Notes under the pieces: model-generated
The model's input: the letters and a program-made list of their open reading frames with translations, nothing else
Database searches by the model: none
Told to the model about the DNA's origin: nothing
Assembly: GCF_008122505.1 (NCBI RefSeq)
Contig: NZ_VSSB01000002.1
Span: 744,001 to 808,000 of the forward strand
Length of the DNA: 64,000 bases
Direction of reading: 5' to 3'
DNA from: Agromyces mariniharenae
GTDB lineage: Bacteria; Actinomycetota; Actinomycetes; Actinomycetales; Microbacteriaceae
Translations under genes and position numbers: made by a program
In this document: piece after piece, positions 1-64,000 of the stretch
Layout of the letters: the number at the start of each line of letters is the position of its first letter
Numbering within the stretch: position 1 is the first letter of the stretch

Positions 1-44
1 ATCGCACGTTCTCCGACGCGACGCCGCACCATGCGTCGCGACAT

Positions 45-56
45 CCCTTCGAAGGG
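45..56. promoter_or_regulatory. 12-bp perfect palindrome upstream of gltB
   Basis: CCCTTCGAAGGG is a perfect palindrome lying about 20 bp upstream of the presumed gltB -10 box. It could be an operator for gltBD or the end of an upstream gene's terminator. The rest of bases 1-83 shows no recognisable gene. Confidence 0.35.
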
Positions 57-75
57 CCGACGACGTCCCCCGCTG

Positions 76-81
76 TTATCT
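76..81 (+). promoter_or_regulatory. Candidate gltB -10 box (TTATCT)
   Basis: TTATCT would place transcription start near 88. That leaves a very short leader carrying GAGGAC, which fits the GTG start at 102. Confidence 0.4.
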
Positions 82-101
82 AGTTGATGAGGACGGTCCA
101 C

Positions 102-3100
102 GTGTCGCTCACTCCACCCTTCTCGAGGTTCGGTCTCGTTCCCGACGCGCAGGGCATGTACGACCCCGCCGCCGAGAAGGACGCCTGCGGCCTCGCGATG
201 GTCGCGACGCTCCGCGGCACCGCGGGGCACGACATCATCACGGCCGCGCTCGACGCGCTGCGCCACCTCGAGCACCGCGGAGCGGTGGGCTCCGACGCTG
301 GAACCGGTGACGGCGCCGGCATCATCACCCAGGTCCCCGACGCGTTCCTGCGCGCCGTCGCACCCTTCGCGCTCCCGGCCGCAGGCGCGTACGCGGTCGG
401 CAACGCGTTCCTCCCCGTCGACCCCACCACGCGGTCGAGCGTCAAGCGCCGGCTCGCCGCGCTCGCGGCATCCGAGGGGCTCGAGGTCATCGGATGGCGC
501 GAGGTCCCCGTTCGGCCCGAGGAGCTCGGCACGCTGGCCCGCGCCGCCATGCCCGTGGTGCAGCAGCTCTACGTGCAGTCCTCTGCGACCACCTCCGACG
601 GCGACCGCCTCTCTGGCATCGCCCTCGACCGGCTCGCCTTCCGGCTGCGCAAGCGCGCCGAGCGCGAGATCGAGCTCTACTTCGCGTCGCTGTCGTGCCG
701 CACGCTCGTCTACAAGGGCATGGTCACGACCCTCCAACTCGAGCCCTTCTACCCCGACCTCTCCGACGAGCGGTTCGCGTCGAAGCTCGCGCTCGTGCAC
801 TCGCGCTACTCGACCAACACGTTCCCGTCGTGGCCGCTCGCGCAGCCGTTCCGCATGATCGCGCACAACGGTGAGATCAACACGATCCAGGGCAACCGCA
901 ACTGGATGCGGGCGCGCCAGTCGCAGCTCGAGTCGGAGCTGCTCGGCGACCTCGACCCGATCCTGCCCATCGTCACGCCGGGAGCGAGCGACTCGGCCTC
1001 GTTCGACGAGGTGGTGGAGCTGCTCACGTTGGCGGGCCGCAGCCTCCCGCACGCGGTCATGATGATGGTGCCCGAGGCGTGGGAGAACCAGACCGAGATC
1101 GACGCGGCCCGCCGGGAGTTCTACGAGTACCACTCGATGCTCATGGAGCCGTGGGACGGCCCCGCCGCGATCGTCTTCACCGACGGCACGCTCGTCGGCG
1201 CGACGCTCGACCGCAATGGCCTGCGCCCCGGGCGGTACGTCGTCACCGACGACGGCCTCGTCGTGCTCGCGAGCGAGATCGGCGTGCTCGACATCGACCA
1301 GTCGCGGATCGTGCGCAAGGGCCGCCTGCAGCCGGGGCGCATGTTCCTCGTGGACACCGAGGCCGGCCGACTCATCGAGGACGACGAGATCAAGGCCGAG
1401 CTCGCGGCATCCGAGCCGTGGGGGACGTGGCTCGACGCCGGTCGCATCCGCCTCGCCGAGCTGCCGGAGCGCGAGCACATCGTGCACCCGCCGGCGTCGG
1501 TGAACCGCCGCCAGAAGACCTTCGGCTACACGGAGGAGGAGGTGAAGATCCTCCTCACGCCCATGGCGCGCACCGGGCAGGAGCCGCTCGGCGCGATGGG
1601 ATCCGACACTCCGATCGCAGTGCTCTCGAAGCGGCCGCGCCTGCTCTTCGACTACTTCACGCAGCAGTTCGCGCAGGTCACGAACCCGCCGCTCGACTCG
1701 ATCCGGGAGGCCGTCGTCACGTCGCTCGGCTCGTCGCTCGGCCCCGAGCGCAACCTGCTCGACGCCGGGCCCGAGCACGCGCGCCAGGTCGTGCTCGACT
1801 TCCCGGTCATCGACAACGACGAGCTCGCGAAGATCGTGCACATCGACCCGCGCATCGGCTCGCGCACCACCAAGACGCTGAAGGGCCTCTACCGAGTCGA
1901 CGACGGCCCCGAGGCGATGCGCGCGCGCCTCGACGAGCTGTGCGACGAGGTCGACGAGGCCATCGAGGAGGGCGCGTCGTTCATCGTCCTGAGCGACCGC
2001 GACTCCACCAAGGACCTCGCGCCGATCCCGTCGCTGCTCATGCTCTCCGCCGTGCACCACCACCTCATCCGGTCGCAGACCCGCATGAAGGTCGGCCTCG
2101 TCGTCGAGGCCGGCGACGTGCGCGAGGTGCACCACATCGCGCTGCTCGTGGGCTTCGGGGCATCCGCCGTGAACCCGTACCTCGCGATGGAGACCTGCGA
2201 GGACCTGGTGCGCTCCGGCGTCATCACGGGCGTCACGCCCGAGCAGGCGGTGCACAACGTGATCAAGGCGCTCGGCAAGGGCGTACTGAAGATCATGTCG
2301 AAGATGGGCATCTCGACCATCTCGTCGTACGCGGGCGCCCAGGCGTTCGAGGCCGTCGGCCTCTCGCAGGAGTTCATCGACGAGTACTTCACGGGCACCA
2401 CCTCGAAGCTCGGCGGCGTCGGCATCGACGTGATCGCGGCCGAGAACGTGCACCGCCACCGCGTCGCGTACCCCGAGGACGTCGCCGTGCGCGCGCACGA
2501 GCGCCTCGCGACGGGCGGCGAGTACCAGTGGCGCCGCGACGGATCGCCGCACCTGTTCAACCCCGAGACGGTGTTCCGCCTGCAGCACGCGACCCGGAAC
2601 CGCCGCTACGACGTGTTCCGCGAGTACACCTCGCTCGTCGACTCGCAGGCCGAGGATCTGATGACGCTGCGCGGCATGTTCGCGCTCCGCACGGGCTCGC
2701 GCGCGCCGGTGCCGATCGACGAGGTCGAGCCGATCGAGTCGATCGTGAAGCGGTTCTCCACCGGTGCGATGAGCTACGGCTCCATCTCGAAGGAGGCGCA
2801 CGAGACCCTCGCGATCGCCATGAACCGGCTGGGTGCGAAGTCCAACACGGGCGAGGGCGGCGAGGACCTCGACCGCCTGCTCGACCCCGAGCGCCGCAGC
2901 GCGATCAAGCAGGTCGCTTCGGGCCGCTTCGGCGTCACGAGCATGTACCTCACGCACGCCGACGACATCCAGATCAAGCTGGCCCAGGGCGCGAAGCCTG
3001 GCGAGGGCGGCCAGCTGCCGCCGACGAAGGTCTACCCGTGGGTCGCGCGCACCCGGCACGCGACCGCCGGCGTCGGGCTCATCTCGCCGCCGCCGCACCA

Positions 3101-4801: not shown

Positions 4802-6251
<1,450 letters not shown>

Positions 6252-8609: not shown

Positions 8610-8644
8610 CGGATGCCGCGACGACCCGTTCGTCGCGGCATCCG
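8610..8644 (+). terminator. Terminator after pdtaR built from the GGATGCC motif
   Basis: CGGATGCCGCGACGA pairs perfectly with TCGTCGCGGCATCCG (15 bp) around a 5-nt loop. Each arm contains one copy, in opposite orientation, of the dispersed octamer CGGATGCC/GGCATCCG. There is no T-tract, as is common in Actinobacteria. Confidence 0.8.
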
Positions 8645-8719
8645 TCGTCTCCGCGGGCAGCCGTGGCCGCGGCATCCGTCGCCCGTCGCCGGCGGCCGAT
8701 CGGTGTCGTCGGTCGCTTG

Positions 8720-8731: not shown

Positions 8732-11434
8732 GTGCCGGACGCAGACAAGCCCACCCTCCTCGTGATCGACGGCCATTCGCTGGCCTTCCGCGCCTTCTAC
8801 GCCCTCCCCGTCGACAGCTTCTCGACGCGCGACGGACAGCACACGAACGCCATCCACGGCTTCCTGTCGATGCTGCTCCTGCTGCTGCAGAACGAGAAGC
8901 CGACGCACCTGGCGGTCGCGTTCGACATGTCCCGCCAGTCGTTCCGCACGCGCGAGTACGCGGAGTACAAGGGCAACCGCGGCGAGACGCCGGTCGAGTT
9001 CCGGGGGCAGGTCCCGCTCCTCCAAGACGCGCTGCGCGCCATGGGCGTGCGCACGCTCGAGAAGGAGGACTTCGAGGCCGACGACATCCTCGCGACGCTC
9101 GCGGCGCGGGGCGTCGCCGAGGGGTATCGCGTGCTGCTCGTGTCGGGCGACCGCGACACCATCCAGCTCGTCAACGACGACGTCACGCTGCTCTACCCCA
9201 ACACGCAGGGCGTCTCGCAGCTCAAGCGCTACGACACCGACGCGGTCGTCGAGCGCTACGGCATCCGCCCCGAGCAGTACCCCGACGTGGCCGCGCTCGT
9301 CGGCGAGACGAGCGACAACCTGCCCGGCATCCCCAAGGTCGGCGAGAAGACCGCGGTGAAGTGGCTCGGCCTCTACGGCGACCTCGACGGCATCCTCGAG
9401 CACGCCGAGGAGATCAAGGGCGTCGTGGGGCAGAACCTGCGCGACGGGCGCGAGAACGCGGTGCGCAACCGCAAGCTCAACCAGCTCGTGCGCGACGTCG
9501 AGCTCGACGTCGAGATCGCCGAGCTCGAGTCCCGGCCGATCGACCTCGAGTCGGTCCGGCCCATCTTCGAGCGGCTCGAGTTCCGCACGCTCATGGAGCG
9601 CGTGACGAAGCTCGTCACGGGCGAGGCCAACGGCGGCGGCGGCGGCGCGGCCGCGGCATCCGCGCCCGCCCAGCCCGAGGTCGTCGAGATCGGCCCCGCA
9701 CCGACGGCGCCGACCCCGCTGCGCCTCGTCGGCGACGAGCTCGCCGGGTGGCTCGAGCGCGCCGCCGCCGCCGAGCCGGCCGGGCTCGGCCTCAGCCTCG
9801 AGGTCGTCGACGGGCGCGTGATCGGCGCCGGGATCGCGACGAACGGCGAGTCGGTGCACCTCGCATGGCGGGAGGGCGCGCCCGAGACGGCGCCGTTCGA
9901 GGCGTGGCTCGCGAGCGACGCGCCGAAGATCCTCACCGACGCGAAGCCGCAGCTGAAGGCGCTCACGCGGTCGGGTCTCGCGATCGACGGGCTCGTGCTC
10001 GACACGCTCCTCGCCGGATGGCTCGTGCGGCCGATCCTGCAGGAGAAGACGCTGGCCGACCTCGTGGCGTATCACCTCGGCGAGACCGTGCCGCAGGCCG
10101 ACCCGGCGATGCTCGTCCCCGAAGAGGGCAGCGATTCCGGCGCGCCCGAGTACGCCTGGTACACGCTCCGCCTCGCGCCCGTCGTGCTCCGCGCCCTCTC
10201 CGACGAGTCGCGACGCCTGCTCGCCGAGATCGAGATGCCGCTCGTGCACGTGCTCGCCGCCATGGAGCTCCGCGGCGTCACCGTCGACCACGGTGAGCTC
10301 GCCACCCTCTCCGGGGAGCTCGGCGCGCGCGCCGCGGCGCTGGCCGAGGCCGCCTACGCCGAGATCGGCCGCGAGATCAACCTCGGCTCGCCGAAGCAGC
10401 TCCAAGAGGTGCTCTTCGACCAGCTCGGCATGCCCAAGACCCGGGCCACGAAGACCGGCTACACCACCGACGCCAACGCCCTCGCCGACCTCCAGGAGTC
10501 GAACCCGCACCCGTTCCTCGGCTACCTGCTCGAGCATCGCGATGTCACGAAGCTCCGCCAGATCATCGAGTCGCTCGACAAGGCGATCGGCGCCGACGGG
10601 CGCATCCACACGACGTACGGCCAGATCGGCGCGGCCACTGGCCGCATGTCGTCGAACGACCCGAACCTGCAGAACATCCCCATCCGCACCGAAGACGGGC
10701 GGCGCATCCGCGAGGCGTTCCGCCACGGTCCCGAGTACGCCGAGCTGCTCACGGCCGACTACTCGCAGATCGAGATGCGCATCATGGCGCACCTCTCGGG
10801 CGACCCGGGGCTCATCGAGGCGTTCAACGCCGGTGAGGACCTGCATCGGTTCGTCGGCGCGCGGGTGTTCTCGGTCGACCCGGCCGACGTCACCAACCTC
10901 ATGCGCACGAAGGTCAAGGCGATGTCCTACGGCCTGGCCTACGGGCTCAGCGCGTTCGGCCTCTCCAAGCAGCTCCGCATCGAGCGCGCAGAGGCGCAGC
11001 AGCTCATGCGCGAGTACTTCGAGCGCTTCGGCGCCGTGCGCGACTACCTGCGCGGAGTGGTCGAGCAGGCACGCATCGACGGCTACACCGAGACGATCTT
11101 CGGCCGCCGGCGCCCGTTCCCCGACCTGTCCAGCCCCAACCGCGTGCTCCGCGAGAACGCCGAGCGCGCCGCGCTCAACTCGCCGATCCAGGGCTCGGCC
11201 GCCGACATCATCAAGATCGCGATGTCGCGCGTCGAGGCCGACATCGCCGCCCGCGGGCTCGGGAGCCGCATGCTCATGCAGGTGCACGACGAGCTCATCT
11301 TCGAGGTGGCGGCCGGCGAATCCGACGTGCTGGAGGAGATCGTCCGCGGCCGCATGGCGAGTGCCGCCGACCTCCTCGTGCCGCTCGACGTGCAGATCGG
11401 GCGGGGCGCGAACTGGGACGACGCGGCTCACTGA
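8732..11434 (+). CDS. polA: DNA polymerase I
   Basis: Repair and Okazaki-fragment polymerase (900 aa). The N-terminal 5'-3' exonuclease domain (about 1-290) has LLVIDGHSLAFRAFYALP, SGDRDTIQL and the GIPKVGEKTA helix-hairpin-helix. A linker of Gly and Ala residues follows near 298-305. The middle domain has the 3'-5' exonuclease fold position but no D-x-E metal site (LSLEVVDGRV), so proofreading is probably lost, as usual in actinobacterial Pol I. The polymerase domain carries TADYSQIEMRIMAHLSGD (motif A), the O-helix RTKVKAMSYGLAYGL and MQVHDELIFEV (motif C). It fills gaps left by UvrABC, encoded nearby. Confidence 0.97.
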   Translation: MPDADKPTLLVIDGHSLAFRAFYALPVDSFSTRDGQHTNAIHGFLSMLLLLLQNEKPTHLAVAFDMSRQSFRTREYAEYKGNRGETPVEFRGQVPLLQDALRAMGVRTLEKEDFEADDILATLAARGVAEGYRVLLVSGDRDTIQLVNDDVTLLYPNTQGVSQLKRYDTDAVVERYGIRPEQYPDVAALVGETSDNLPGIPKVGEKTAVKWLGLYGDLDGILEHAEEIKGVVGQNLRDGRENAVRNRKLNQLVRDVELDVEIAELESRPIDLESVRPIFERLEFRTLMERVTKLVTGEANGGGGGAAAASAPAQPEVVEIGPAPTAPTPLRLVGDELAGWLERAAAAEPAGLGLSLEVVDGRVIGAGIATNGESVHLAWREGAPETAPFEAWLASDAPKILTDAKPQLKALTRSGLAIDGLVLDTLLAGWLVRPILQEKTLADLVAYHLGETVPQADPAMLVPEEGSDSGAPEYAWYTLRLAPVVLRALSDESRRLLAEIEMPLVHVLAAMELRGVTVDHGELATLSGELGARAAALAEAAYAEIGREINLGSPKQLQEVLFDQLGMPKTRATKTGYTTDANALADLQESNPHPFLGYLLEHRDVTKLRQIIESLDKAIGADGRIHTTYGQIGAATGRMSSNDPNLQNIPIRTEDGRRIREAFRHGPEYAELLTADYSQIEMRIMAHLSGDPGLIEAFNAGEDLHRFVGARVFSVDPADVTNLMRTKVKAMSYGLAYGLSAFGLSKQLRIERAEAQQLMREYFERFGAVRDYLRGVVEQARIDGYTETIFGRRRPFPDLSSPNRVLRENAERAALNSPIQGSAADIIKIAMSRVEADIAARGLGSRMLMQVHDELIFEVAAGESDVLEEIVRGRMASAADLLVPLDVQIGRGANWDDAAH

Positions 11435-11445: not shown

Positions 11446-11484
11446 CGGATGCCGCGCGCCGCCGCATGCGGCACGGGGCATCCG
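11446..11484 (+). terminator. Terminator after polA, GGATGCC arms
   Basis: CGGATGCC and GGCATCCG form an 8-bp outer stem enclosing the perfect palindrome GCCGCATGCGGC, giving a branched hairpin about 11 nt after the polA stop. Confidence 0.6.
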
Positions 11485-18632: not shown

Positions 18633-21524
<2,892 letters not shown>

Positions 21525-48875: not shown

Positions 48876-48910
48876 CGACGCCCCGGATGCCGCGTGCATC
48901 CGGGGCGTCG
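48876..48910 (+). terminator. suf operon terminator
   Basis: CGACGCCCCGGATGC pairs perfectly with GCATCCGGGGCGTCG (15 bp) around a 5-nt loop. The left arm and loop edge carry one octamer CGGATGCC; the right arm repeats its GCATCCG core. Confidence 0.85.
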
Positions 48911-51074: not shown

Positions 51075-51908
51075 ATGCAGCGCGACGGGGAGTCGATCGA
51101 GTCCGCACCGGCCGAGGCCTACACGCACGGCCATCACGAGAGCGTGCTCCGCGTGCACTCCTGGCGCACGGTGGAGAACTCGGCCGCCTACCTCGCGCCG
51201 CACCTCGAGGCCGGCGCCCGCGTGCTCGACGTCGGCAGCGGCCCCGGAACCATCACAATCGACCTCGCGCGCCGCGTGCGACCCGGCCTCGTGACGGGCG
51301 TCGACGCCGCCGCCGACGTCGTGGCGCGCGCGGCCGGCCTCGCTTCGAGCGAGCGCGTCGACAACGTCGACTTCCGCGTCGGCGATGCCTACGCCCTCGA
51401 GTTCGCGGATGCCGCGTTCGACGTCGTGCACGCGCACCAGGTGCTGCAGCACCTCGCCCGCCCCGTCGACGCGCTGCGCGAGTTCCGTCGGGTGCTGAAA
51501 CCCGGCGGCATCCTCGCGGTGCGCGACGTCGACTACGGCGGCGTGATCTGGAGCCCGGCCTCGTCGGGCCTCGACCGCTGGCTCGAGCTCTACCACGACG
51601 TCGCGATCGGCAACGGCGGGGAGCCCGACGCGGGCCGTCACCTCACGCGCTGGGTGCGCGAGGCGGGCTTCGTCGACGCGGATTCCACCGCGACGACCTG
51701 GGTGTTCTCGACCGCGCTCGAGCGGGAGTGGTGGGGCAACTCGTGGGCCGAGCGGGCGACGCAGTCGCAGTTCGCGGCACACGCGATCGAGTCGGGACAC
51801 TCGAACCCCGCCGAGCTCGCGCGCATCGGGCAGGCGTGGCGCGACTGGGCGACCGACGACGACGGCTGGTTGCTCATGCCGCACGCCGAGGTGCTCGCGC
51901 GGGCCTGA
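51075..51908 (+). CDS. Class I SAM-dependent methyltransferase
   Basis: A 277-aa UbiE/MenG-like methyltransferase. The SAM site VLDVGSGPGTITIDL lies near residues 50-64, the acidic loop GVDAAADVV follows, and FDVVHAHQVLQHLARP and FRRVLKPGGILAVRDVDYGG complete motifs II and III. The substrate is unknown; the C-terminal 100 residues (Trp-rich, ending in LLMPHAEVLARA) resemble small-molecule methyltransferases. Single-gene unit with a leaderless promoter. Confidence 0.9.
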   Translation: MQRDGESIESAPAEAYTHGHHESVLRVHSWRTVENSAAYLAPHLEAGARVLDVGSGPGTITIDLARRVRPGLVTGVDAAADVVARAAGLASSERVDNVDFRVGDAYALEFADAAFDVVHAHQVLQHLARPVDALREFRRVLKPGGILAVRDVDYGGVIWSPASSGLDRWLELYHDVAIGNGGEPDAGRHLTRWVREAGFVDADSTATTWVFSTALEREWWGNSWAERATQSQFAAHAIESGHSNPAELARIGQAWRDWATDDDGWLLMPHAEVLARA

Positions 51909-51912
51909 GGCG

Positions 51913-52137
51913 CTACCAGTCCTCGTCGGCGTCGTGCACGTCGATGATGGCGTCGCTGACGACGGTGCCGTCGTCGAGCTCGACGATCGGGCGCCCCTCC
52001 AGCCAGGTCAGCGTCCAGTGGCGGCCGGCGCCCTCGCCCTCGTGGGTCGCCTCCGCGGCCGCGATGCGCGGGCGCAGGTCGGCGGGCACGGATGCCGGCG
52101 GCTCGGCGCCGAACTCCCAGCGCGTGCCGAGGCGCAT
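51913..52137 (-). CDS. Hypothetical protein, 74 aa, coupled to the GNAT gene
   Basis: A short acidic protein I do not recognise. It starts MRLGTRWEFGAEPPASVP, contains HWTLTWLEGRPIVELDDGTVV and ends VHDADEDW. Predicted soluble, with no cysteine, signal peptide or membrane segment. Alternating hydrophobic residues in the second half suggest a small beta-sheet. Its ATG shares one base with the GNAT TGA (TGATG), so it should be translated by re-initiation and may work with or next to the acetyltransferase. A longer in-frame start exists inside the GNAT gene but has no support. Confidence 0.7.
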   Translation of the reverse strand: MRLGTRWEFGAEPPASVPADLRPRIAAAEATHEGEGAGRHWTLTWLEGRPIVELDDGTVVSDAIIDVHDADEDW

Positions 52138-52592: not shown

Positions 52593-55175
52593 CTACGCCT
52601 CGGGTGCGGCGAGCACGATGTCGCGCACCTCGAACTCGTCGGCCTCCACGAACGACAGCGACGCGATGCGCCCCACCGCGCGGAGGTCGGATGCCGCCGA
52701 CTCGAGCAGCGCGATCGCGGTCGCCGGGGCGGCGATCACGGCGCTCGACACCGGGGTCTTCTGCGACGCCTTCGCGTCGGTCTTGGCGCGACGGATGCCC
52801 GTGAGCGCCAGACTCGCGAGCTCGAGCAGCTCGACACCGGCCTCACCGCGGGCGGCGAGCTCGTCGGTCGTCGGCCACGCGGCGCGGTGCACCGAGCCCG
52901 CGTTCGACCAGCGCCAGGCCTCCTCGGTCGCGAACGGGATGACCGGTGCGAACAGGCGCAGCAGCACCGAGAGCGCGGTCTTCAGCGCCGCGACGGCCGA
53001 GGCCTGCTCGGGGCTGGGCTCGCCGTAGGCGCGCTCCTTCACGAGCTCGAGGTAGTCGTCGCAGAAGGTCCAGAAGAAGGTCTCGGCGACCTCGAGCGCC
53101 CGGGCGTGGTCGTAGGCGTCGAACGAACGCGTGGCGCTCGCGACGACGTCGGCGAGCTCGGCGAGCATGCTGCGGTCGATCGGCACGGTCACCGGGGCAT
53201 CCGCGCTTCCGTCGAAGCCGAGGATGAACTTCGCGGCGTTCAGCACCTTGATGCTGAGGCGACGGCCGATCTTCACCTGCGTCGGGTTCTGCGGATCGAA
53301 CGCGGCGTCGACGCCGAGGCGGCTCGACGCGGCCCAGTACCGCACCGCGTCGGAGCCGTGCTGCTCGAGGAGGCCCGCGGGGGTCACCACGTTGCCCTTC
53401 GACTTCGACATCTTCTTGCGGTCGGGGTCGACGATGAAGCCCGAGATCGCCGTGTTCGCCCACGGCCGGGTGCCGTGCTCGAGCTCGGCGCGCAGCACCG
53501 TGGAGAACAGCCACGTGCGGATGATGTCCTGCGCCTGCGGCCGCAGCGAGTACGGGAAGACGAGGTCGAACAGCTCGGGGTCGCGCTCCCAGCCGCCCGC
53601 GAGCTGCGGCGTGAGCGAGGACGTCGCCCAGGTGTCCATGATGTCGTGCTCGCCGACGAAGCCGCCCGGCTCGCCGCGCTGCGACTCCTCGTAGCCCGGC
53701 GCAGTGGCCGACGACGGGTCGACCGGCAGCAGCTCGCGCGTCGCGACGATGGGCTCGTCGAACACGGGATTCCCGTCTGCGTCGAGCGGGTACCACACCG
53801 GGATCGGCACGCCGAAGAAGCGCTGGCGGGAGATCAGCCAGTCGCCAGCGAGGCCGCCCACCCAGTTCTCGTAGCGCACGCGCATGAAGTCGGGGCGCCA
53901 GTCGATCTCACGACCGCCGTCGACGAGGCGCGACCGCAGCTCCTCGTCGCGCGCGCCGTTCACGATGTACCACTGGCGCGTGGAGACGATCTCGAGCGGG
54001 CGGTCGCCCTTCTCGAAGAACTTCACGGGGTGCGTGATGGCCTTGGGCTCGCCGAGCAGGTCGCCCGACGATCGGAGCTGCTCGACCACGGCCTGCTTGG
54101 CGGAGTAGGCGGTCTTGCCGGCGAGCTCGGCGAACGCGGCACGACCGGACTCCGACGTGATGGCGTCGGGCGCCTCCGCGACGATGCGGCCGTCGAACCC
54201 GATGATCGTGCGGTTCGGGAGGTCGAGCTCGCGCCACCACACGACGTCGGTCACATCGCCGAAGGTGCAGATCATGGCGATGCCCGTGCCCTTGTCCTTC
54301 TGGGCGAGGTGATGCGCCACGACCGGCACCTCGACGCCGAACACGGGCGTCGTCACGGTCGTGCCGAAGAGGGGCTGGTAGCGCTCGTCGTCGGGGTGCG
54401 CGACGAGGGCCACGCACGCGGGGATGAGCTCGGGGCGGCTCGTCTCGATCTCGACCGTGCCGCCGTCGGGGCGGTGGAAGGTCACGCGATGGTAGTGGCC
54501 GGCCTGCTCGCGGTCCTCGAGTTCGGCCTGGGCCACCGCGGTGCGGAACGTCACGTCCCAGAGCGTGGGCGCGAGCGCCTGGTAGGCCTCGCCGCGCTCG
54601 ACGTTGCGGATGAACGCGAGCTGCGAGGTGAACAGCGCCTCGTCGGCGATCGTGCGATAGGTCTGCGTCCAGTCGACCGACAGGCCGAGCGCGCGGAACA
54701 GCGCCTCGAACTCCTGCTCGTCCTCCACCGTCAGCTTCTCGCACAGTTCGATGAAGTTGCGGCGGCTGATCGGCAGCTGGTCGGCGGCCTTCGTGCTCTT
54801 GTTGTCGCCGCCCTCGAACGGCGGCACGAAGTCGGGGTCGTACGGCAGCGTCGGGTCGCATCGCACGCCGTAGTAGTTCTGCACGCGGCGCTCGGTGGGC
54901 AGGCCGTTGTCGTCCCAGCCCATGGGGTAGAAGACGCTGCGGCCGCGCATGCGCTGGTACCGCGCCACGAGGTCGGTGTGCGTGAACGAGAACACGTGGC
55001 CGATGTGCAGCGAGCCCGACGCGGTGGGCGGCGGCGTGTCGATCGAGTAGATCGCGTCGCGCGTGGCGGAGTCGCGGTCGAACCGGTAGGTGCCGTCCTG
55101 CTCCCAGACGCCGCCCCACTTGGCCTCGAGGCCCTCGAGTGCGGGCTTGTCGGGGATGCGCGGGGTGTCGGTCAT
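52593..55175 (-). CDS. valS: Valyl-tRNA synthetase
   Basis: Charges tRNA-Val (860 aa). Class I signatures are PTASGSLHIGHVFSF (HIGH) and RKKMSKSKGNV (KMSKS). MGWDDNGLPTERRVQNYYGVRC is typical of the actinobacterial ValRS lineage. The editing domain lies between them, followed by the anticodon-binding helices and a short C-terminal region. ATG 55175 (MTDTPRIPDKPALEGLEAKW) matches the family; an in-frame ATG at 55211 adds 12 residues of unlikely sequence. Its presumed -10 box lies in the loop of the upstream gene's terminator. Confidence 0.96.
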   Translation of the reverse strand: MTDTPRIPDKPALEGLEAKWGGVWEQDGTYRFDRDSATRDAIYSIDTPPPTASGSLHIGHVFSFTHTDLVARYQRMRGRSVFYPMGWDDNGLPTERRVQNYYGVRCDPTLPYDPDFVPPFEGGDNKSTKAADQLPISRRNFIELCEKLTVEDEQEFEALFRALGLSVDWTQTYRTIADEALFTSQLAFIRNVERGEAYQALAPTLWDVTFRTAVAQAELEDREQAGHYHRVTFHRPDGGTVEIETSRPELIPACVALVAHPDDERYQPLFGTTVTTPVFGVEVPVVAHHLAQKDKGTGIAMICTFGDVTDVVWWRELDLPNRTIIGFDGRIVAEAPDAITSESGRAAFAELAGKTAYSAKQAVVEQLRSSGDLLGEPKAITHPVKFFEKGDRPLEIVSTRQWYIVNGARDEELRSRLVDGGREIDWRPDFMRVRYENWVGGLAGDWLISRQRFFGVPIPVWYPLDADGNPVFDEPIVATRELLPVDPSSATAPGYEESQRGEPGGFVGEHDIMDTWATSSLTPQLAGGWERDPELFDLVFPYSLRPQAQDIIRTWLFSTVLRAELEHGTRPWANTAISGFIVDPDRKKMSKSKGNVVTPAGLLEQHGSDAVRYWAASSRLGVDAAFDPQNPTQVKIGRRLSIKVLNAAKFILGFDGSADAPVTVPIDRSMLAELADVVASATRSFDAYDHARALEVAETFFWTFCDDYLELVKERAYGEPSPEQASAVAALKTALSVLLRLFAPVIPFATEEAWRWSNAGSVHRAAWPTTDELAARGEAGVELLELASLALTGIRRAKTDAKASQKTPVSSAVIAAPATAIALLESAASDLRAVGRIASLSFVEADEFEVRDIVLAAPEA

Positions 55176-55278: not shown

Positions 55279-56631
55279 TCAGGCGGTGGGACCGGCCGCC
55301 TGCGGTTCGAGCTGCTGCTCGGGGTCGCCCGACTCGGGCACCACGGGCATCCGGGCGGCCGCCCACGCGGCGACGAGGGTCACGGCGGAGAGCACGGCGA
55401 GCACGATCCCCGGGTGCCACCACACGTACCCCGTCGCCTCGCCGAGCGCCACGGTCACGAGCGGCACGAAGCCGCCCACGGTGGCCGCGATCGCGTACGA
55501 GACCGAGAGCGCCGAGTACCGGAAGTGGTCGGGGAACAGGTCGTTCATGAGGCCGCCGAGCGCGGCCCACGACATGGTCGGCAGGATGCCGCCGATGATC
55601 ATGGTGCCCACGAGGATCGGGAACGTCGCGAACTGCAGCAGGAAGTACATCGGGAACGTGATGAGCAGCGTGCCGAGCGCGCCCCACGCCACGACCCGGG
55701 CCGAGCCGATGCGGTTCGCCCACGCGCCGAAGAGCGGGATGGTGACGAGCTGCAGCAGGCCGCCGATCGTGGTCGCGATCAGGAGGTCCTGGAAGCTGAA
55801 GCCGAGCTCCGCCGCGCCGTAGTTGATGGTGTACGTGTTCATCAGCGAGTACGAGCCGATGCCGAGCATCGCCGCGCCGATGGCGATGAGGATCGCGACG
55901 GGGCGCTTCTGGAACATGGTCGCGAACGGGACGCGGTCGCGGCGCCCCTCGGCGACGACCTCCTTGAACACGGGCGTCTCGTCGATCGACCAGCGCAGGT
56001 AGAGCGAGACGAGCAGGAGCGGGATCGCGAGGAGGAAGGGGATGCGCCAGCCCCACGCCGCGATCTCCTCGGCGGGGAGCACGAGGGTCATGATGATGAA
56101 CAGTGCCGCGGAGAGGATCGACCCGACGGGGGAGCCGAGCTGCGGGATCGCGGCGTAGAACGCGCGCTTCACGGGGTTCGAGTGCTCGGTCGCGAGCAGG
56201 ATCGAGCCGCCCCACTCGCCGCCGAGCGAGAGCCCCTGCACGACGCGCAGCAGCACCAGGCCGACGGCGCCGAGCCAGCCGGCCTGGGCGTAGGTCGGCA
56301 GCAGGCCGATGAGGCCGGTCGCGACGCCCATGATGCCGACGGTCCAGAGCAGCGTCGCGCGGCGTCCGAGGCGGTCGCCCATGTGGCCGAAGATCGCCGC
56401 ACCGATCGGGCGGACCACGAAGGCCAGGGCGATCGTCGAGAACGCGGCGAGGGTGCCGCCGAACTCGCCGAGCGGGTCGAAGAAGAGCGGGCCGACGAAG
56501 AACGCCGAGAAGTACGCGAAGACGTAGAAGTCGAACGATTCGAGCGAGGTGCCGACCATCGACGCCCACGCGATGCGTCGGATGTGGGGCGGGTCCGCGG
56601 GCGTGGTGGGCACGGGGGTTGCAGTGGTCAC
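55279..56631 (-). CDS. MFS transporter, metabolite:H+ symporter (MHS) family
   Basis: A 450-aa permease with 12 predicted helices. The N-terminal half has WASMVGTSLESFDFYVFAYF, GAAIFGHMGDRLGRRATLL (the cytoplasmic loop 2-3 motif), RVVQGLSLGGEWGGSILL and RRIPF-like charged turns, all typical of the MHS/ShiA-ProP subfamily that imports organic acids, shikimate or betaines with protons. The substrate cannot be assigned. GTG 56631 has AAGGA 6 nt upstream. It is divergent from a GntR-family gene that probably regulates it. Confidence 0.92.
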   Translation of the reverse strand: MTTATPVPTTPADPPHIRRIAWASMVGTSLESFDFYVFAYFSAFFVGPLFFDPLGEFGGTLAAFSTIALAFVVRPIGAAIFGHMGDRLGRRATLLWTVGIMGVATGLIGLLPTYAQAGWLGAVGLVLLRVVQGLSLGGEWGGSILLATEHSNPVKRAFYAAIPQLGSPVGSILSAALFIIMTLVLPAEEIAAWGWRIPFLLAIPLLLVSLYLRWSIDETPVFKEVVAEGRRDRVPFATMFQKRPVAILIAIGAAMLGIGSYSLMNTYTINYGAAELGFSFQDLLIATTIGGLLQLVTIPLFGAWANRIGSARVVAWGALGTLLITFPMYFLLQFATFPILVGTMIIGGILPTMSWAALGGLMNDLFPDHFRYSALSVSYAIAATVGGFVPLVTVALGEATGYVWWHPGIVLAVLSAVTLVAAWAAARMPVVPESGDPEQQLEPQAAGPTA

Positions 56632-57245: not shown

Positions 57246-57490
57246 CAACGACATCGATCCGGCCATCACCGGGGAGTCTTCGGAAGAACGCGAGTGGATG
57301 CCCCCGTGGCATCCGATCGGCAAGTAGAACCGAACGGGTCGGCCCGTCACAGCCGCAACGAGGGGCGAATCGGTCCCGGTCCCTGAGCTCGTCGAAGGGC
57401 GAAGGGTCCGATTCGCAAGCGAGGTGGTACCGCGGCGGAGCTCGATCGAGCGGCCGGCGTCCTCGCGGAAGCATCCGTCCCCGCAAGGAG
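57246..57490 (+). promoter_or_regulatory. T-box riboswitch (ultrashort stem I, translational) controlling ileS
   Basis: Senses uncharged tRNA-Ile. An ultrashort stem I hairpin CCGGCCATCACCGG (57259-57272) presents ATC (57265-57267), an Ile codon, in its loop; another ATC lies at 57253. GGGGAGTCTTCGGAAGAAC follows, typical of actinobacterial ileS leaders. Stem III is GCGAATCGG (57365-57373) with CCGATTCGC (57408-57416). The T-box GAGGTGGTACCGCGG (57421-57435) contains TGGT, complementary to the tRNA ACCA end. GCGAGG (57419-57424) can pair with CCTCGC (57461-57466) to form the antisequestrator. Alternatively TCCTCGCGG (57460-57468) pairs with CCGCAAGGA (57481-57489), hiding the Shine-Dalgarno AAGGAG. 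Control of translation is the known mode in this group. Confidence 0.93.
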
Positions 57491-57495: not shown

Positions 57496-60400
57496 GTGTA
57501 CCCCCGTACCCCAGACGACCACTCCGTCGCCCCGTCTCCCGACTTCCCGTCGGTCGAGCGCGAGGTCCTCGCGTTCTGGAAGGCCGACGAGACCTTCCAG
57601 GCGTCGATCGACCAGCGCGAGGGCGCACCCGAGTGGGTCTTCTACGACGGCCCGCCGTTCGCCAACGGCCTGCCGCACTACGGGCACCTCCTCACGGGCT
57701 ACGCCAAGGACCTGTTCCCGCGGTTCCAGACCATGCGCGGGCACCAGGTGCACCGCCGGTTCGGCTGGGACACCCACGGCCTGCCCGCCGAGCTCGAGGC
57801 CGAGCGCCAGCTCGGCATCACCGACAAGAGCGAGATCGAGGAGATGGGCATCGCGGCCTTCAACCAGGCCGCGCGCGACGCCGTGCTGCGCTACACCGAG
57901 GAGTGGCAGGACTACGTCACCCGCCAGGCGCGCTGGGTCGACTTCGAGAACGACTACAAGACGCTCGACCTCCCGTTCATGGAGTCCGTGATCTGTGCGT
58001 TCAAGACGCTCTACGACAAGGGCCTCGCCTACGAGGGCTACCGCGTGCTGCCGTACTGCTGGCGCGACCAGACGCCGCTGTCGAACCACGAGCTGCGCAT
58101 GGACGACGACGTCTACAAGATGCGCCAGGACCAGACCGTCACGGTCACCTTCCCGCTCACGGGCGCGAAGGCGGAGTCGCTCGGGCTCACCGCCGTGCGC
58201 GCCCTCGCGTGGACGACGACGCCGTGGACGCTGCCGACGAACTTCGCGCTCGCGGTCGGCCCCGGCATCGAGTACGCCGTCGTGCCCGCCGGCCCGAACG
58301 GCACGCCCGATGCGACGGTCAACCGCGAGCACGTCGGCGCGACCGACACCGAGGTGCTCGGCGCCGAGTACCTGCTCGCCCGCGACCTCGTGGGCAGCTA
58401 CGCCAAGGAGCTCGGCTACGACTCGGCCGACGACGCCCGCGCTGCGGTCTCGCGCACGGTCACGGGTGCCGAGCTCGAGGGCGTGACCTACGACCGGCTC
58501 TTCGACTACTACGCCGACGTCGACCACTACGGGCTGCAGAACGCCTGGCAGATCCTCGTCGCCGACTACGTCACGACCGACGACGGCACCGGCATCGTGC
58601 ACCAGGCCCCCGCATACGGCGAGGAGGACCAGAAGGTGGGCGAGGCCGCCGGCATCCCGGTGATCCTCTCGCTCGACGAGGGCGGCCGGTTCCTCTCGGC
58701 GGTGACGGATGTCGCGGGCCTCCTCTGGAGCGACGCGAACAAGCCGCTCACGCAGGTGCTCAAGGCCGAGGGCCGACTGCTCCGCCAGGCGAGCTACGAG
58801 CACTCGTACCCGCACTGCTGGCGCTGCCGCAACCCGCTCATCTACAAGGCGGTGTCGAGCTGGTTCATCCGCGTGCCCGACTTCCGCGACCGCATGGGCG
58901 AGCTGAACCAGGAGATCACCTGGGTCCCCGAGAACGTCAAGGACGGCCAGTTCGGCAAGTGGGTCGCGGGCGCCCGCGACTGGTCGATCAGCCGCAACCG
59001 GTACTGGGGCTCGCCGATCCCCGTGTGGAAGAGCGACGACCCCGAGCACCCGCGCATCGACGTCTACGGCTCGCTCGAGGAGCTCGAGCGCGACTTCGGG
59101 GTGCTGCCGCGCAACTCGCACGGCGAGCCCGACCTGCACCGCCCGTTCATCGACGACCTGACCCGCCCGAACCCCGACGACCCCACCGGCAAGAGCACCA
59201 TGCGGCGCATCCCCGACGTGCTCGACGTGTGGTTCGACTCGGGCTCGATGCCGTTCGCGCAGGTGCACTACCCGTTCGAGAACCAGGAGTGGTTCGACTC
59301 GCACAACCCGGCCGACTTCATCGTCGAGTACATCGGGCAGACCCGCGGCTGGTTCTACACCCTGCACGTGCTGTCGACGGCACTGTTCGACCGGCCGGCC
59401 TTCGAGAACGTCGTCAGCCACGGCATCGTGCTCGGCAGCGACGGGCAGAAGATGTCGAAGTCGCTGCGCAACTACCCCGACGTCTCCGAGGTCTTCGACC
59501 GCGACGGCTCCGACGCCATGCGCTGGTTCCTGATGTCGAGCTCGGTGCTGCGCGGCGGCAACCTCGTCGTCACCGAGGAGGGCATCCGCGAGGGCGTCCG
59601 GCAGGTCATGCTGCCGCTGTGGAGCACGTGGTACTTCTTCTCGCTCTACGCCAACACGGCGCGCGAGGGCGGGTACGAGGCGCAGCGGCGCACCGACTCG
59701 ACCGACGTGCTCGACCGGTACCTGCTCGCGAAGCTGCGCGACCTCGTGGCCGGCGTCACGGCCGACCTCGAGGACTTCGACTCGCCGCTCGCGGCGCAGA
59801 AGCTGCGCGACTTCGCCGACGTGCTGACCAATTGGTACGTGCGCCGGTCGCGCGACCGGTTCTGGGCGGGTGTCGGTGAGGACGGCTCGGGTGCCGAGGC
59901 GTTCGACACGCTCTTCACGGTGCTCGAGACCTACACGCGCCTCGCCGCGCCGCTACTCCCGCTCGTCACCGAGCAGGTCTGGCGGGGGCTCACGGGCGGC
60001 CGCAGCGTGCACCTGGCCGACTGGCCCGACGCCGACGAGTTCCCGGCCGACCCGGCGCTCGTCGCCGCCATGGACGCCGTCCGCGAGATCAGCGGCGCCA
60101 CCCTCGCGCTGCGCAAGCAGGCTGGTCGCCGCGTGCGCCTTCCGCTCGCGAACCTCACGGTCGTGACGTCGGATGCCGCGGCGCTCGCGCCCTTCGAGGG
60201 CATCCTCCGCGACGAGCTCAACGTGAAGTCGGTCGACCTCGTGCCGCTCGACGACTCGAGCGCCGAGGCCTACGGCGTCACGAAGCGGCTCAGCGTCAAC
60301 GCGCGGGCCGCCGGACCACGCCTCGGCAAGTCCGTGCAGCAGGCGATCCAGGCCGCCCGGTCGGGCGACTGGTCGCTCAACGGCGAGGGCGTCGTGGCCG

Positions 60401-60801
60401 GCGGCATCGCGCTCGAGCCCGGCGAGTACGACCTCGTGCTCGAGGCCGGCGGCTCGGGCGACGGATCGAACGCGCTCGCACTGCTGTCCGACGGCGGCTT
60501 CGTCCTCCTCGACACCGTGACGACGCCCGAGCTCGAGGCCGAGGGCCTCGCGCGCGACGTCGTCCGCGCCGTGCAGGAGGCCCGCAAGGCCGCCGGCCTC
60601 GAGGTCGGCGACCGCATCCGCCTCGCCCTCACGCTCGACGCGATCGGCGCCGCCGCGGCATCCGCGCACCACGCGCTCATCGCCCGGGAGACGCTCGCCT
60701 CCGAGCTCGACATCGAGACGGCCGCCGACGTGGCGGGCGCCGCGGCGTCGCGTCCGGTCGGCGACGGCTCCGCCCTGCTCGTGGACCTGGAGAAGCTGTG
60801 A
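57496..60801 (+). CDS. ileS: Isoleucyl-tRNA synthetase (eukaryote-like type)
   Basis: Charges tRNA-Ile (1101 aa). Class I signatures are [16 protein letters not shown] (HIGH region) and [13 protein letters not shown] (KMSKS). [33 protein letters not shown] and the long C-terminal extension place it in the eukaryote-like IleRS2 clade found in many Actinobacteria, which is generally insensitive to mupirocin (inference for this enzyme). GTG 57496 has AAGGAG 5 nt upstream, the same Shine-Dalgarno sequestered by the T-box. The stop overlaps the folC GTG by 4 nt. Confidence 0.97.
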
Positions 60802-62174
60802 CCGACGCATCCGACGACTTCGAGGCCGCCGAGGCGCGCGACGCGGCCGACGCCGTGTACACCGCGCTCATCGCCCGCGTGGGCGAGGGCTCGCCGCGGC
60901 CGAGGCTGGCGCCGACGCGGAGGGCCGTCGAGTTGCTCGGCGACCCGCACCGCGCCGCGCCCGTGATCCACATCACCGGCACGAACGGCAAGACCTCGAC
61001 CAGCCGCATGATCGAGAGCCTGCTGCGCGCCTCGGGCCTGCGCACCGGCCTGCTCACGAGCCCGCACCTCGAGCGGTTCACCGAGCGCATCCGCATCGAC
61101 GGCGATCCCATCGCCGACGAGGCCGTCGCCCGCAACTGGGACGAGATCCTCCCGTTCATCGCGATCGTCGACGCCGAGCTCGAGGGCGCGGGCGAGGAAC
61201 CGCTGACCTTCTTCGAGGTGCTCACGGTGCTCGCGTTCGCGTGCTTCGCCGACGCCCCGGTCGACGTCGTCGTGCTCGAGGTGGGCATGGGCGGCGAGTG
61301 GGACTCCACGAACGTGGCCGACGGACAGGTGGCGGTGTTCACGCCGATCCACCTCGACCACCAGTCGCGACTCGGCTCCACGATCACCGAGATCGCGCGC
61401 ACGAAGTCGGGCATCATCAAGCCAGCGGCATCCGTCGTCAGCGCTCGCCAGCCCGACGCGGCGCTCGAGGTGCTGGAGGACGCGGCCGACCTCACCGAGT
61501 CGACGCTCGCGGTCGAGGGCGACGCCTTCGACGTGCTCGAGTCGCGCGTGGCCGTGGGCGGACAACTGGTGTCCATCCGGGGCCTCGCGGGGGAGTACCG
61601 CGACATCGCGCTGCCGCTGTTCGGCCGGCACCAGGCCGAGAACGCCGCCGTGGCGATCGCAGCGGTCGAGGCGTTCATCGGCGGCGGGGCCGTGCGCCTC
61701 GCCGACGAGGTCGTCGACGGCCTCGCGACGACCACGTCGCCCGGTCGCCTGCAGACGATCGGCACCGAGCCCACGGTCATCGTGGACGCGGCGCACAATC
61801 CGCACGGCGCCGCCTCGCTCGTGGCGGCGCTCGAGGAGTACTTCGACTTCGACGAGGTCGTGTTCGTGTTCGGCGTGCTCGCCGACAAGGACGCCGACGG
61901 CATCGCCTCGGTGCTCGCCCGCACGGGCGGGGCGTTCCTCGTGACGCGGCCCGATTCCGAGCGGGCCCGCGATGCCGGCGAGGTGGCAGCGTCGATCGCG
62001 GCCCGCATCGGGCCCGAGCGCGTGCAGGTCGTCGACCGGCTCGACGACGCGCTCGACGAGGCGCGCGAGTGGGCGTCCGAGGCCCCGAAGCGCGCGGTGG
62101 TCGTGACCGGCTCGATCGGGCTCGTCGCCGAGGCGATGGAGATCGCCGCCGACCGCGGCTGGGGTCGCGCATGA
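60798..62174 (+). CDS. folC: Folylpolyglutamate synthase / dihydrofolate synthase
   Basis: Adds glutamate residues to folates and, in the bifunctional form, makes dihydrofolate from dihydropteroate (458 aa). It belongs to the Mur ligase superfamily: P-loop [61 protein letters not shown] and [14 protein letters not shown] are all intact. The GTG overlaps the ileS stop (GTGA) and its TGA overlaps the next ATG (ATGA), so ileS, folC, the DUF4233 gene and ndk form a tightly coupled operon. Confidence 0.96.
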
Positions 62175-63087: not shown

Positions 63088-63095
63088 TCGGATGC

Positions 63096-63124
63096 CGCGC
63101 CGGCCGGGTCGCCCGGCCGGCGCG
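63096..63124. terminator. Terminator between ndk and the VKOR gene
   Basis: CGCGCCGGCCGGG pairs perfectly with CCCGGCCGGCGCG (13 bp) around a TCG loop, between convergent genes. Confidence 0.85.
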
Positions 63125-63171
63125 AGCCCTGGGGGCCTGAGCGGCGGCCCAGGCGGGGTCGACCCGATCGC

Positions 63172-63798
63172 CTACCCGAAGAGGTTCTGCAGGTCGATCA
63201 TCACGCGCGGGATCGCATTCATCTGCACCTGCGCCAGCACGATGACGATCGCGTAGCAGACGACCGTGATGAGCGGGATCCACTTGAACCACTCGGCTGC
63301 GAGGCGCCGGACGCGTGCCGACGCGGGAATATGACCCTCGCGCAGGTTGTGCAGGGTCACCACCCAGAACGTCGGGATGGTCACCGCCCACGTCAGCATG
63401 CACCAGGGGCACAGCACGTCGAGCACGTAGATGCTCTGGGAGATGAGCCAGCCCACGAAGACCAGCGCCCCGGCGACGCCCACGTTGAACCCGATCCAGA
63501 ACCACCGGGCGAACTGCGCTCCGGCCAGGATCGCCACCGCGATCGTGACGACGACGGGCCAGGCCATCATGCCGATGAACGGATTCGGGAAGCCGAACAC
63601 CGAGCCCTGCCACGATGCGAGGTTCGTGCTGCAGCCCACGAGCACCCCGACGTTGCAGTTCGGGACGTGCTCGGGATCGGCCAGCACGAGGACCTTCTCG
63701 ACCGACAGCTCGAACGCGGCGAGCAGGCCCAACGCCCCGGCGATCACGAGGAACACGGCGACCGCGACGGGTCGGGACCGCGGGGGAGTGTCCGGCAT
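63172..63798 (-). CDS. Vitamin K epoxide reductase (VKOR) family membrane protein
   Basis: A 208-aa membrane protein with five predicted helices. It carries both VKOR cysteine pairs: Cys48 and Cys56 (CNVGVLVGC) in the first external loop and Cys130-Cys133 (CPWC) at the quinone site. Bacterial VKOR replaces DsbB, re-oxidising a DsbA-like partner to make disulfide bonds in exported proteins. No DsbA is fused or adjacent. ATG 63798 gives MPDTPPRSRPVAV and a normal first helix; a longer in-frame start runs into the divergent promoter region. Possible clients include exported cysteine-bearing proteins such as that at 39709-39951 (speculative). Confidence 0.93.
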   Translation of the reverse strand: MPDTPPRSRPVAVAVFLVIAGALGLLAAFELSVEKVLVLADPEHVPNCNVGVLVGCSTNLASWQGSVFGFPNPFIGMMAWPVVVTIAVAILAGAQFARWFWIGFNVGVAGALVFVGWLISQSIYVLDVLCPWCMLTWAVTIPTFWVVTLHNLREGHIPASARVRRLAAEWFKWIPLITVVCYAIVIVLAQVQMNAIPRVMIDLQNLFG

Positions 63799-63804
63799 GT
63801 TCGT

Positions 63805-63851
63805 ATTGTGGCATGCCGTTTCCACACGACCCTGTGAGAGCGTGCGATAAT
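63805..63851. promoter_or_regulatory. Divergent -10 boxes upstream of the VKOR gene and the next plus-strand gene
   Basis: The minus strand has CACAAT (63810-63805), 6 nt before the VKOR ATG (leaderless). The plus strand has GATAAT (63846-63851), a good -10 for the gene beyond the window edge. Confidence 0.5.
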
Positions 63852-64000
63852 CGAAGGAGTCGCACGGGCCGCGCCCGCCGCGACGCAGACGAAGGCTTTG
63901 AGGATGCACCGCATCCGAGTAGGCGGTGAGACGCACCGCGAGACGTGGCGACACAGGCACCCAGCCGGTCGCAGCAGTGAGAAGGATTGGCGGTTCCGCG
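63852..64000 (+). promoter_or_regulatory. Long leader of the next plus-strand gene (possibly rne), truncated by the window
   Basis: At least 140 nt of presumed leader without a confirmed start codon. It contains a small GGATGC-ACC-GCATCC hairpin near 63902-63916. An open frame from ATG 63904 runs to the window end (begins MHRIRVGGETHR) but has no recognisable family. In related genomes the gene next to ndk and VKOR here is often RNase E/G (rne), whose leaders are long; this is context only. Confidence 0.3.

Follow-up and report, generated by a model that had tools for sequence, protein, structure and literature searches.

An over-represented octamer of Agromyces mariniharenae as the candidate core of a transformation uptake sequence in Microbacteriaceae

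The octamer GGCATCCG (reverse complement CGGATGCC) is over-represented throughout the genome of the actinobacterium Agromyces mariniharenae, and we lean towards the view that it forms the core of a transformation uptake sequence in the family Microbacteriaceae, with CGCGGCATCCG as the full form in this genome. The word was noticed in a stretch of 64,000 nucleotides (contig NZ_VSSB01000002.1, positions 744,001 to 808,000; hereafter the window), which is core chromosome carrying gltB, pyk, polA, rpsA, uvrB, uvrA, gapA, zwf, tkt, sufBCD, valS, ileS and folC. A first-pass annotation made from the letters of the window had put the number of copies, by eye, at about 50 where base composition predicted about 5, with a density near 0.8 per kb. 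Our count is 55, with 33 copies on the plus strand and 22 on the minus strand (0.86/kb), and the eleven coordinates listed in that annotation each lie within 0-3 bases of a counted copy (468 is 467, 28267 is 28270 and 60655 is 60657). Dinucleotide-preserving shuffles of the window gave a mean of 6.21 copies (standard deviation 2.30, maximum 12), and 0 of 100 shuffles reached 55. Among all 8-mers of the window, GGCATCCG ranks first against Markov models of orders 2, 3 and 4 (7.2, 6.6 and 17.0 copies expected) and second at order 1. It is not outstanding in the window at order 5 or at the maximum order because those models contain the 6- and 7-mers of the motif itself; the maximum-order model, which holds its 7-mers, was set aside as an uninformative test.

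The whole genome (4.08 Mb) contains 4707 copies, 2359 forward and 2348 reverse, or 1153 per Mb, and the reversed word, used as a control, occurs 206 times, giving a ratio of 23. At 1.15/kb the genome is denser than the window, and it holds thousands of perfect copies at about one per kb, as uptake sequences do. The over-representation is confirmed as real and genome-wide. To extend the consensus, as the annotation had proposed, we used the 422 copies found within 369.5 kb of the genome (the window plus 16 stretches). On its 5' side the octamer is preceded by C (76%), G (85%) and C (69%), and on its 3' side it is weakly followed by C or T. The resulting CGCGGCATCCG was observed 208 times against 3.8 expected in the 369.5 kb. 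Its one-mismatch neighbours occur near chance (0.49-2.3 fold at order 1), variants of the last base excepted (2.8-5.2 fold), and the signal is therefore a sharp spike.

Copies of the motif are found both within and between genes of A. mariniharenae, in both orientations, as the annotation had described. Called genes hold 42 of the 55 window copies, and the other 13 lie in 4.8 kb of intergenic DNA. Across 364 kb of the genome, in which our own simple gene caller found 346 genes, density was 2.97/kb in intergenic DNA vs 0.97/kb in coding DNA, about a threefold difference. Convergent gaps were the densest (29 copies in 4.3 kb, 6.7/kb), followed by tandem gaps (46 in 16.0 kb, 2.9/kb), where 36 of the 46 copies are closer to the 3' end of the upstream gene, and divergent gaps (22 in 12.9 kb, 1.7/kb). 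The control words CGAGCTC, GGCGTCC, GGATCC and CGCCTCC reached 0 to 0.23/kb in convergent gaps. Twenty inverted pairs of the motif lie no more than 45 bp apart, and 16 of them have the arrangement CGGATGCC-loop-GGCATCCG. The pair at 8610/8637 forms a 15-bp perfect stem, the segment 8591-8660 folding at -41.4 kcal/mol (z -5.07), while folding of the pair at 11446/11477 is less clear (z -1.75). Inverted pairing at terminators had been proposed; inverted pairs do occur at gene ends, but a search of 8400-11700, the span that holds both window pairs, revealed no terminator with a T tail. A single intergenic gap at 25443-25509 carries three direct copies spaced 29-30 bp apart, which do not fold better than shuffles. 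Elsewhere in the assembly, a contig of 5529 bases (G000:C3; 56.7% guanine plus cytosine, GC) has zero copies and is perhaps a ribosomal RNA operon.

Within genes, the motif is written against codon preference. When synonymous codons were shuffled within the genes of the 364 kb, 53.7 coding copies were expected and 320 were seen, the largest excess of all 8-mers. The annotation had allowed that a Markov or codon-aware model might predict the observed count; Markov orders 1-4 and the codon shuffle all fall short of it. Two reading frames account for 230 of the 320 coding copies, xxG GCA TCC G (Ala-Ser) in 128 and xCG GAT GCC (Asp-Ala) in 102, which bears out the earlier remark that genic copies read Ala-Ala-Ser or Asp-Ala and use GCA and TCC against the usual preference; in the window GCA encodes 133 of 2439 Ala and GAT 97 of 1339 Asp, so that both codons are rare. 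Reading frames favour one orientation, 192 vs 128.

By rpsA, the nearest named relatives of the genome belong to Agromyces (96-98% identity, five loci). Retention was compared in five Agromyces relatives. In synonymous comparisons, GCA, TCC and GAT were retained inside the motif in 57%, 73% and 67% of cases and outside it in 26%, 47% and 38% (p 1.4e-6, 2.8e-5 and 0.0018, respectively; these values are optimistic because the five relatives share history and are not independent). Retention of the whole 8-mer was near background in the five relatives, the nearest excepted, and the codon-matched comparison is the more informative of the two. With unaligned sites scored as not found, 13 of the 55 window sites are intact in none of the five relatives and 5 are intact in all five. 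Motif sites turn over, yet more slowly than matched codons. Conserved genes are poorer in the motif, at 0.26 vs 0.87/kb on either side of a 92% identity cut of our choosing, and amino acid conservation correlates negatively with motif density (Spearman -0.34, p 0.018, 47 genes). The central housekeeping genes rpsA (13516-14964), pyk (6336-7751), gapA (26364-27368) and sufB (44743-46161) are free of copies.

To place the motif within the family, we surveyed 299 Microbacteriaceae genomes from 85 genera, the source genome included (G, g and f numbers are our labels for genomes, genera and families); identical counts in labelled and named genomes point to Microbacteriaceae as the family surveyed. 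Whole-genome counts of GGCATCCG ranged from below the control up to 4707; the counts given by name here cover 46 of 80 named loci. Rich genomes include Agromyces sp. Soil535 (4584), Humibacter sp. RRB41 (4041), Leifsonia flava (3681), Microbacterium hibisci (3125) and Galbitalea sp. SE-J8 (2964), and poor ones include Frigoribacterium (246 and 202), Curtobacterium (422 and 377) and Aurantimicrobium (68). The comparison of Agromyces, Microbacterium and Leifsonia that the annotation had suggested found motif-rich genomes in all three, and the motif is present in close relatives, contrary to the absence that it had considered. A strong excess of GGCATCCG is wide but not universal in the Microbacteriaceae. 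No comparable excess was found in 139 genomes from 19 other Micrococcales families, where the highest ratio to control, judged by eye, was about 3.8 (G409). Among plasmids, one Microbacterium record was returned, 465 kb long.

The core of the motif varies by lineage, as GGATGC, GGATCC or GGAGGC, and the dialect forms found were GGCATCCG, CGCGCATCC, GAGGCATCCG, GCATCCGCT, GGATCC and AGGAGGCGC. These come mainly from unrelated stretches of 20-40 kb, which were preferred because k-mer pools from conserved loci are confounded by shared protein sequence. Herbiconiux moechotypicola carries CGCGCATCC (26 vs 2.2 expected), G110 of genus g36, which matching counts identify as Frigoribacterium, carries AGGAGGCGC (25 vs 2.2), and G240, a genus mate of the source genome, carries GAGGCATCC (17 vs 0.6). 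Forms based on GGATCC were found in G164 (CGGATCC, 72 vs 19.8), whose genus mate G106 has CGGCATCC (69 vs 9.3), in G004 (AGGATCC, 28 vs 2.8) and in G034 (GGATCC, 84 vs 21.9, both strands counted). Genus g85 has two members with differing dialects. The word GCATCC is 1.8-3.3 fold over-represented in dense groups and about 0.6-1.5 fold in groups poor in GGCATCCG, with pieces below 4 kb set aside. Weak words were seen in G051 (GTGGATC, 16 vs 2.4) and G096 (CCGGATCA, 13 vs 1.2). The top lists gave no clear form for G304 (7 kb), G340, G330 and G014, nor did 8 of 20 further samples (G045, G120, G178, G105, G026, G119, G017 and G006). Since the whole genome of G006 nevertheless holds 1882 copies vs 105 of the control, small samples can miss the motif. 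In 20 kb of G017 (genus g18), GAGCCAGGC occurs 11 times vs 0.5 expected and is perhaps a local repeat. Small samples from other genera show copies in tandem gaps on the side of the upstream 3' end (10 to 2 in Cryobacterium, 9 to 4 in G110) and dense convergent gaps (4 copies in 0.4 kb in Herbiconiux, 2 in 0.4 kb in Humibacter, 4 in 1.3 kb in Cryobacterium and 5 in 1.7 kb in G110).

If GGCATCCG serves uptake, its recogniser would be a DNA-binding component of the competence apparatus, located at the cell surface, that reads the word in double-stranded DNA whichever way it points; ComEC would carry the strand inward, and DNA from relatives would be imported preferentially. Alleles that bear the motif would more often be taken up and recombined, so that copies would accumulate, and a change in the recogniser would shift the motif of a lineage and give rise to a dialect. 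The annotation had likened the octamer to an uptake sequence, and its density, the genic copies that defy codon preference, the two orientations and the inverted pairs all stand in this genome; the recogniser in the uptake machinery, biased uptake and uptake-driven accumulation are what we infer from them. A search for competence genes, which had also been suggested, found ComEC in 29 of 30 genomes, motif-rich and motif-poor alike, the one miss being a genome that is 82% complete. The comEC gene of the source genome adjoins a gene of 206 residues, in the usual place of comEA. Searches for the pilus protein TadE gave matches in 14 of 18 genomes. The Gram-positive relative Micrococcus luteus has comEA and comEC homologues and requires Flp/Tad-type pili for transformation, according to the parts of PMC6370729 used here, and its competence makes uptake in the Micrococcales plausible.

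The closest known parallels are in two Gram-negative families; the cited papers are drawn on here in excerpt. The DNA uptake sequences (DUS) of the Neisseriaceae are likewise words of 8-12 bp in thousands of copies, on both strands and often in coding DNA, with inverted pairs at permissive intergenic places and dialects that differ by 1-2 bases (PMC3630211); Neisseria meningitidis and N. gonorrhoeae have about 1900 copies of the form AT-DUS (PMC3630211). Unlike these, the motif described here belongs to a Gram-positive actinobacterial host and is unrelated in sequence, and no T tail was found at either pair of the window; no receptor of the ComP type was identified, TadE being the one candidate looked for, and the likeness is one of anatomy. 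The uptake signal sequences (USS) of the Pasteurellaceae are comparable in density, Haemophilus influenzae having 1014 USS10 per Mb (PMC7811141) vs 1153 copies per Mb in A. mariniharenae, and they too favour one orientation in reading frames (PMC2346458). They differ in the word, the cell envelope and the machinery.

Several observations weigh against an uptake function. The preference for gene termini that the Pasteurellaceae are reported to show is weak in A. mariniharenae. The genomes with GGATCC forms have no 3'-end preference (1:1 in G164, 2:2 in G034 and 3:2 in G004), and in 40-kb samples of G106 and G063, two motif-rich genomes, gaps between genes hold copies at no higher density than the genes do: G106 has 2.33 copies/kb in coding DNA, 0.89/kb in tandem gaps and 1 copy in 0.6 kb of convergent gaps, while G063 has 1.28/kb in coding DNA and none in tandem or convergent gaps. 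Enrichment between genes and at gene ends is well established in the A. mariniharenae genome alone, and its generality is only partly shown. Since ComEC is also present in genomes such as G051 that have no GGCATCCG excess, it does not discriminate, and TadE was missed in the dialect carriers G110 and G004, which leaves the Tad pilus unsupported as a universal receptor. Of three Microbacterium phages, two contain GGCATCCG at expectation and one above it (4, 8 and 4 copies vs 4.0, 3.6 and 3.7), and all three contain CGGCATCC, the commoner Microbacterium form, at 2-3 fold the same expectations (11, 9 and 7 copies). At 0.17-0.28/kb for CGGCATCC vs 32 copies in 40 kb (0.8/kb) in M. hibisci, phage DNA is below the M. 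hibisci level but not wholly neutral. Among open-licence articles in PubMed Central we found none joining Microbacterium, competence, natural transformation and comEC and, in the portions of that literature covered, none joining uptake sequences with Microbacteriaceae; the excerpted sources describe uptake sequences for only the two Gram-negative families (PMC3630211, PMC7811141).

The best of the alternatives, though we consider it unlikely, is that the motif is the target of an orphan methyltransferase, its methylation serving repair, replication or methylation-dependent uptake. The model for this is HIP1 of cyanobacteria, likewise an octamer that is scattered in excess through the genomes of many members of its group (PMC1939737, in part) and with a possible orphan methyltransferase link. 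A. mariniharenae has an orphan adenine-type methyltransferase of family PF01555, related to RsrI/CcrM (G000:C1:1438810-1439709, minus strand), with orthologues in 13 of the 14 genomes first compared and strong matches (E 2.7e-91 or better, counted by eye) in 266 of the 299 family genomes. All dialects (GGATGC, GGATCC and GGAGGC) share GGA and with it an adenine that could be the modified base in each, and G051 and G121 lack both the gene and an excess of GGCATCCG (43 and 44 copies vs 115 and 114 of the control). Motif density, however, is not tied to the gene. Without any match, G281 carries 1905 copies vs 131 of the control, and G220 and G070, with weak matches, carry 1299 vs 110 and 376 vs 63, so that the excess is strong in G281 and G220 and moderate in G070; G281 and G070 resemble their genus mates. 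Individual cases of this kind could stem from a gap in the assembly or from a loss of recent date. Strong matches to the gene occur in genera g11, g14 and g60, which show little GGCATCCG excess and whose other dialects are inadequately sampled, and also in the other families f6 and f20. Genus g50 lacks the gene and was not counted, its GGCATCCG being only 2.8-4.4 fold over control. HIP1 is a palindrome (PMC1939737, in part), whereas GGCATCCG is directional and differs from CGGATGCC, and the concentration at gene 3' ends in A. mariniharenae sets it further apart from HIP1; methylation alone gives no cause for such clustering. The PF01555 enzyme is therefore an unlikely cause of motif density, and of the methylation alternative raised in the annotation what is left is a motif that may be methylated. 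C5 methylases (PF00145, 5 of 14 genomes) and N6_Mtase (PF02384, 8 of 14) are scattered and supply no constant factor.

Slightly less probable again is a binding site for a chromosome-organising or nucleoid protein. The genome-wide spread of the motif would suit such a role, gaps between copies above 60 bp fitting an exponential distribution (Kolmogorov-Smirnov p 0.46), and so would the balance between strands. A nucleoid role does not in itself account for the dialects, for the hairpin-forming inverted pairs at 3' ends, for the scarcity of copies in conserved genes or for family members such as G051 that show no GGCATCCG excess. A Chi-like recombination signal or polar segregation motif is very improbable. 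Chi of Escherichia coli is an over-represented octamer, which is the point of resemblance, and it has replication polarity. The strand-bias check suggested in the annotation found GGCATCCG balanced and without such polarity in 16 stretches (422 copies; chi-square 10.3 on 16 degrees of freedom). A replication-linked skew of at least 60:40 is excluded (P no greater than 0.0022) and 55:45 is compatible (P 0.054), which disposes of a polar motif of the Chi or KOPS (FtsK-orienting polar sequence) kind with a skew of at least 60:40; the enrichment of copies between genes and in inverted pairs in A. mariniharenae also speaks against Chi. Weakest of all is codon-pair, dipeptide or mutational bias, for which the two dominant reading frames could be cited: the motif is densest outside genes and, within them, six times as frequent as the codon shuffle predicts, no comparable excess was found in other families, many of which are GC-rich, and no one-step neighbour is depleted strongly enough (lowest 0.49 fold) to be its mutational source. 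A codon or composition artefact is rejected by the shuffles, Markov orders 1-4 and the codon shuffle.

Table 1. Copies of GGCATCCG and inverted motif pairs in the window.
Feature	Position	Strand
GGCATCCG copy, gltB	467..474	+
GGCATCCG copy, gltB	1406..1413	+
GGCATCCG copy, gltB	2159..2166	+
GGCATCCG copy, called gene 4854-6251	6167..6174	+
GGCATCCG copy, intergenic, hairpin left arm	8610..8617	-
GGCATCCG copy, intergenic, hairpin right arm	8637..8644	+
Inverted pair, 15-bp perfect hairpin, 3' of called gene 8024-8590, ahead of polA	8610..8644	.
GGCATCCG copy, intergenic	8671..8678	+
GGCATCCG copy, polA	9260..9267	+
GGCATCCG copy, polA	9655..9662	+
GGCATCCG copy, intergenic, left arm of pair	11446..11453	-
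GGCATCCG copy, intergenic, right arm of pair	11477..11484	+
Inverted pair downstream of polA	11446..11484	.
GGCATCCG copy, called gene 11591-13264	12430..12437	+
GGCATCCG copy, called gene 15749-16369	16117..16124	+
GGCATCCG copy, intergenic	16383..16390	-
GGCATCCG copy, uvrA	21494..21501	+
GGCATCCG copy, called gene 21632-23491	21736..21743	+
GGCATCCG copy, called gene 21632-23491	22939..22946	+
GGCATCCG copy, called gene 21632-23491	23001..23008	-
GGCATCCG copy, called gene 24444-25421	24678..24685	+
GGCATCCG copy, intergenic triple	25443..25450	+
GGCATCCG copy, intergenic triple	25472..25479	+
GGCATCCG copy, intergenic triple	25502..25509	+
GGCATCCG copy, called gene 27380-28594	27672..27679	-
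GGCATCCG copy, called gene 27380-28594	28215..28222	-
GGCATCCG copy, called gene 27380-28594	28270..28277	+
GGCATCCG copy, intergenic	30188..30195	+
GGCATCCG copy, zwf	33156..33163	-
GGCATCCG copy, tkt	36662..36669	-
GGCATCCG copy, tkt	37036..37043	-
GGCATCCG copy, tkt	37211..37218	-
GGCATCCG copy, called gene 40113-42980	40582..40589	+
GGCATCCG copy, called gene 40113-42980	42493..42500	-
GGCATCCG copy, called gene 40113-42980	42749..42756	+
GGCATCCG copy, called gene 42977-43570	43361..43368	-
GGCATCCG copy, called gene 43567-44493	43578..43585	-
GGCATCCG copy, called gene 43567-44493	44355..44362	+
GGCATCCG copy, sufD	46403..46410	-
GGCATCCG copy, sufD	47218..47225	+
GGCATCCG copy, called start of gene 47351-47677	47353..47360	+
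GGCATCCG copy, called gene 48531-48860	48698..48705	-
GGCATCCG copy, intergenic	48884..48891	-
GGCATCCG copy, dcp-like peptidase gene	49438..49445	+
GGCATCCG copy, dcp-like peptidase gene	50868..50875	+
GGCATCCG copy, called gene 51075-51908	51406..51413	-
GGCATCCG copy, called gene 51913-52137	52089..52096	-
GGCATCCG copy, valS	52688..52695	-
GGCATCCG copy, valS	52792..52799	-
GGCATCCG copy, valS	53196..53203	+
GGCATCCG copy, major facilitator superfamily (MFS) transporter gene	55346..55353	+
GGCATCCG copy, intergenic	57308..57315	+
GGCATCCG copy, ileS	59581..59588	+
GGCATCCG copy, ileS	60170..60177	-
GGCATCCG copy, ileS	60657..60664	+
GGCATCCG copy, folC	61427..61434	+
GGCATCCG copy, intergenic	63089..63096	-

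Other words were found in further families of the Micrococcales. In 240 kb of G384 (family f7), the unrelated word CCACCTCGGCG occurs 79 times vs 1.5 expected, and its core CCTCGGCG occurs 326 times vs 42-53, with strands balanced at 169/157. The core is denser in convergent than in divergent gaps (2.4 vs 0.6/kb) and 13 of 15 tandem intergenic copies lie near 3' ends, although its coding density (1.4/kb) exceeds its intergenic density (1.1/kb, 28 copies in 25.5 kb). In 40 kb of G396 (family f20), ACGATGCCG (12 vs 0.6) and GCATCGTCC (9 vs 0.3) resemble a further dialect, GGACGATGCCG. Several samples of family f6, G424 among them, over-represent CCGCCGTCG and the palindromic CGACGTCG, neither of which is clearly enriched between genes in G424, and in 20 kb of another f6 genome, G463, GCGTCC/GGACGC occurs 31 times vs 5.9. 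That sequence-specific transformation is widespread in the Gram-positive Micrococcales, each family (Microbacteriaceae, f7) having its own uptake word, is a tentative extension that we hold with some doubt.

Uptake sequences are known, from the portions of the literature cited above, in two Gram-negative families, and knowledge of their evolution and recognition therefore rests on two cases. If an uptake function for GGCATCCG and its counterpart in f7 is true, uptake sequences would have arisen a third and a fourth time, beyond the Gram-negative bacteria, and if the words of f7 and f20 are also uptake words, the trait would characterise the order. Thousands of copies and several dialects in a Gram-positive family would provide an independent replicate, and natural dialect swaps such as that in genus g85 could be used for finding the receptor and for testing accumulation by biased uptake alone. 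Many soil actinobacteria would then also seem likely to be transformed by DNA of their own relatives, which may be of aid to their laboratory genetics.

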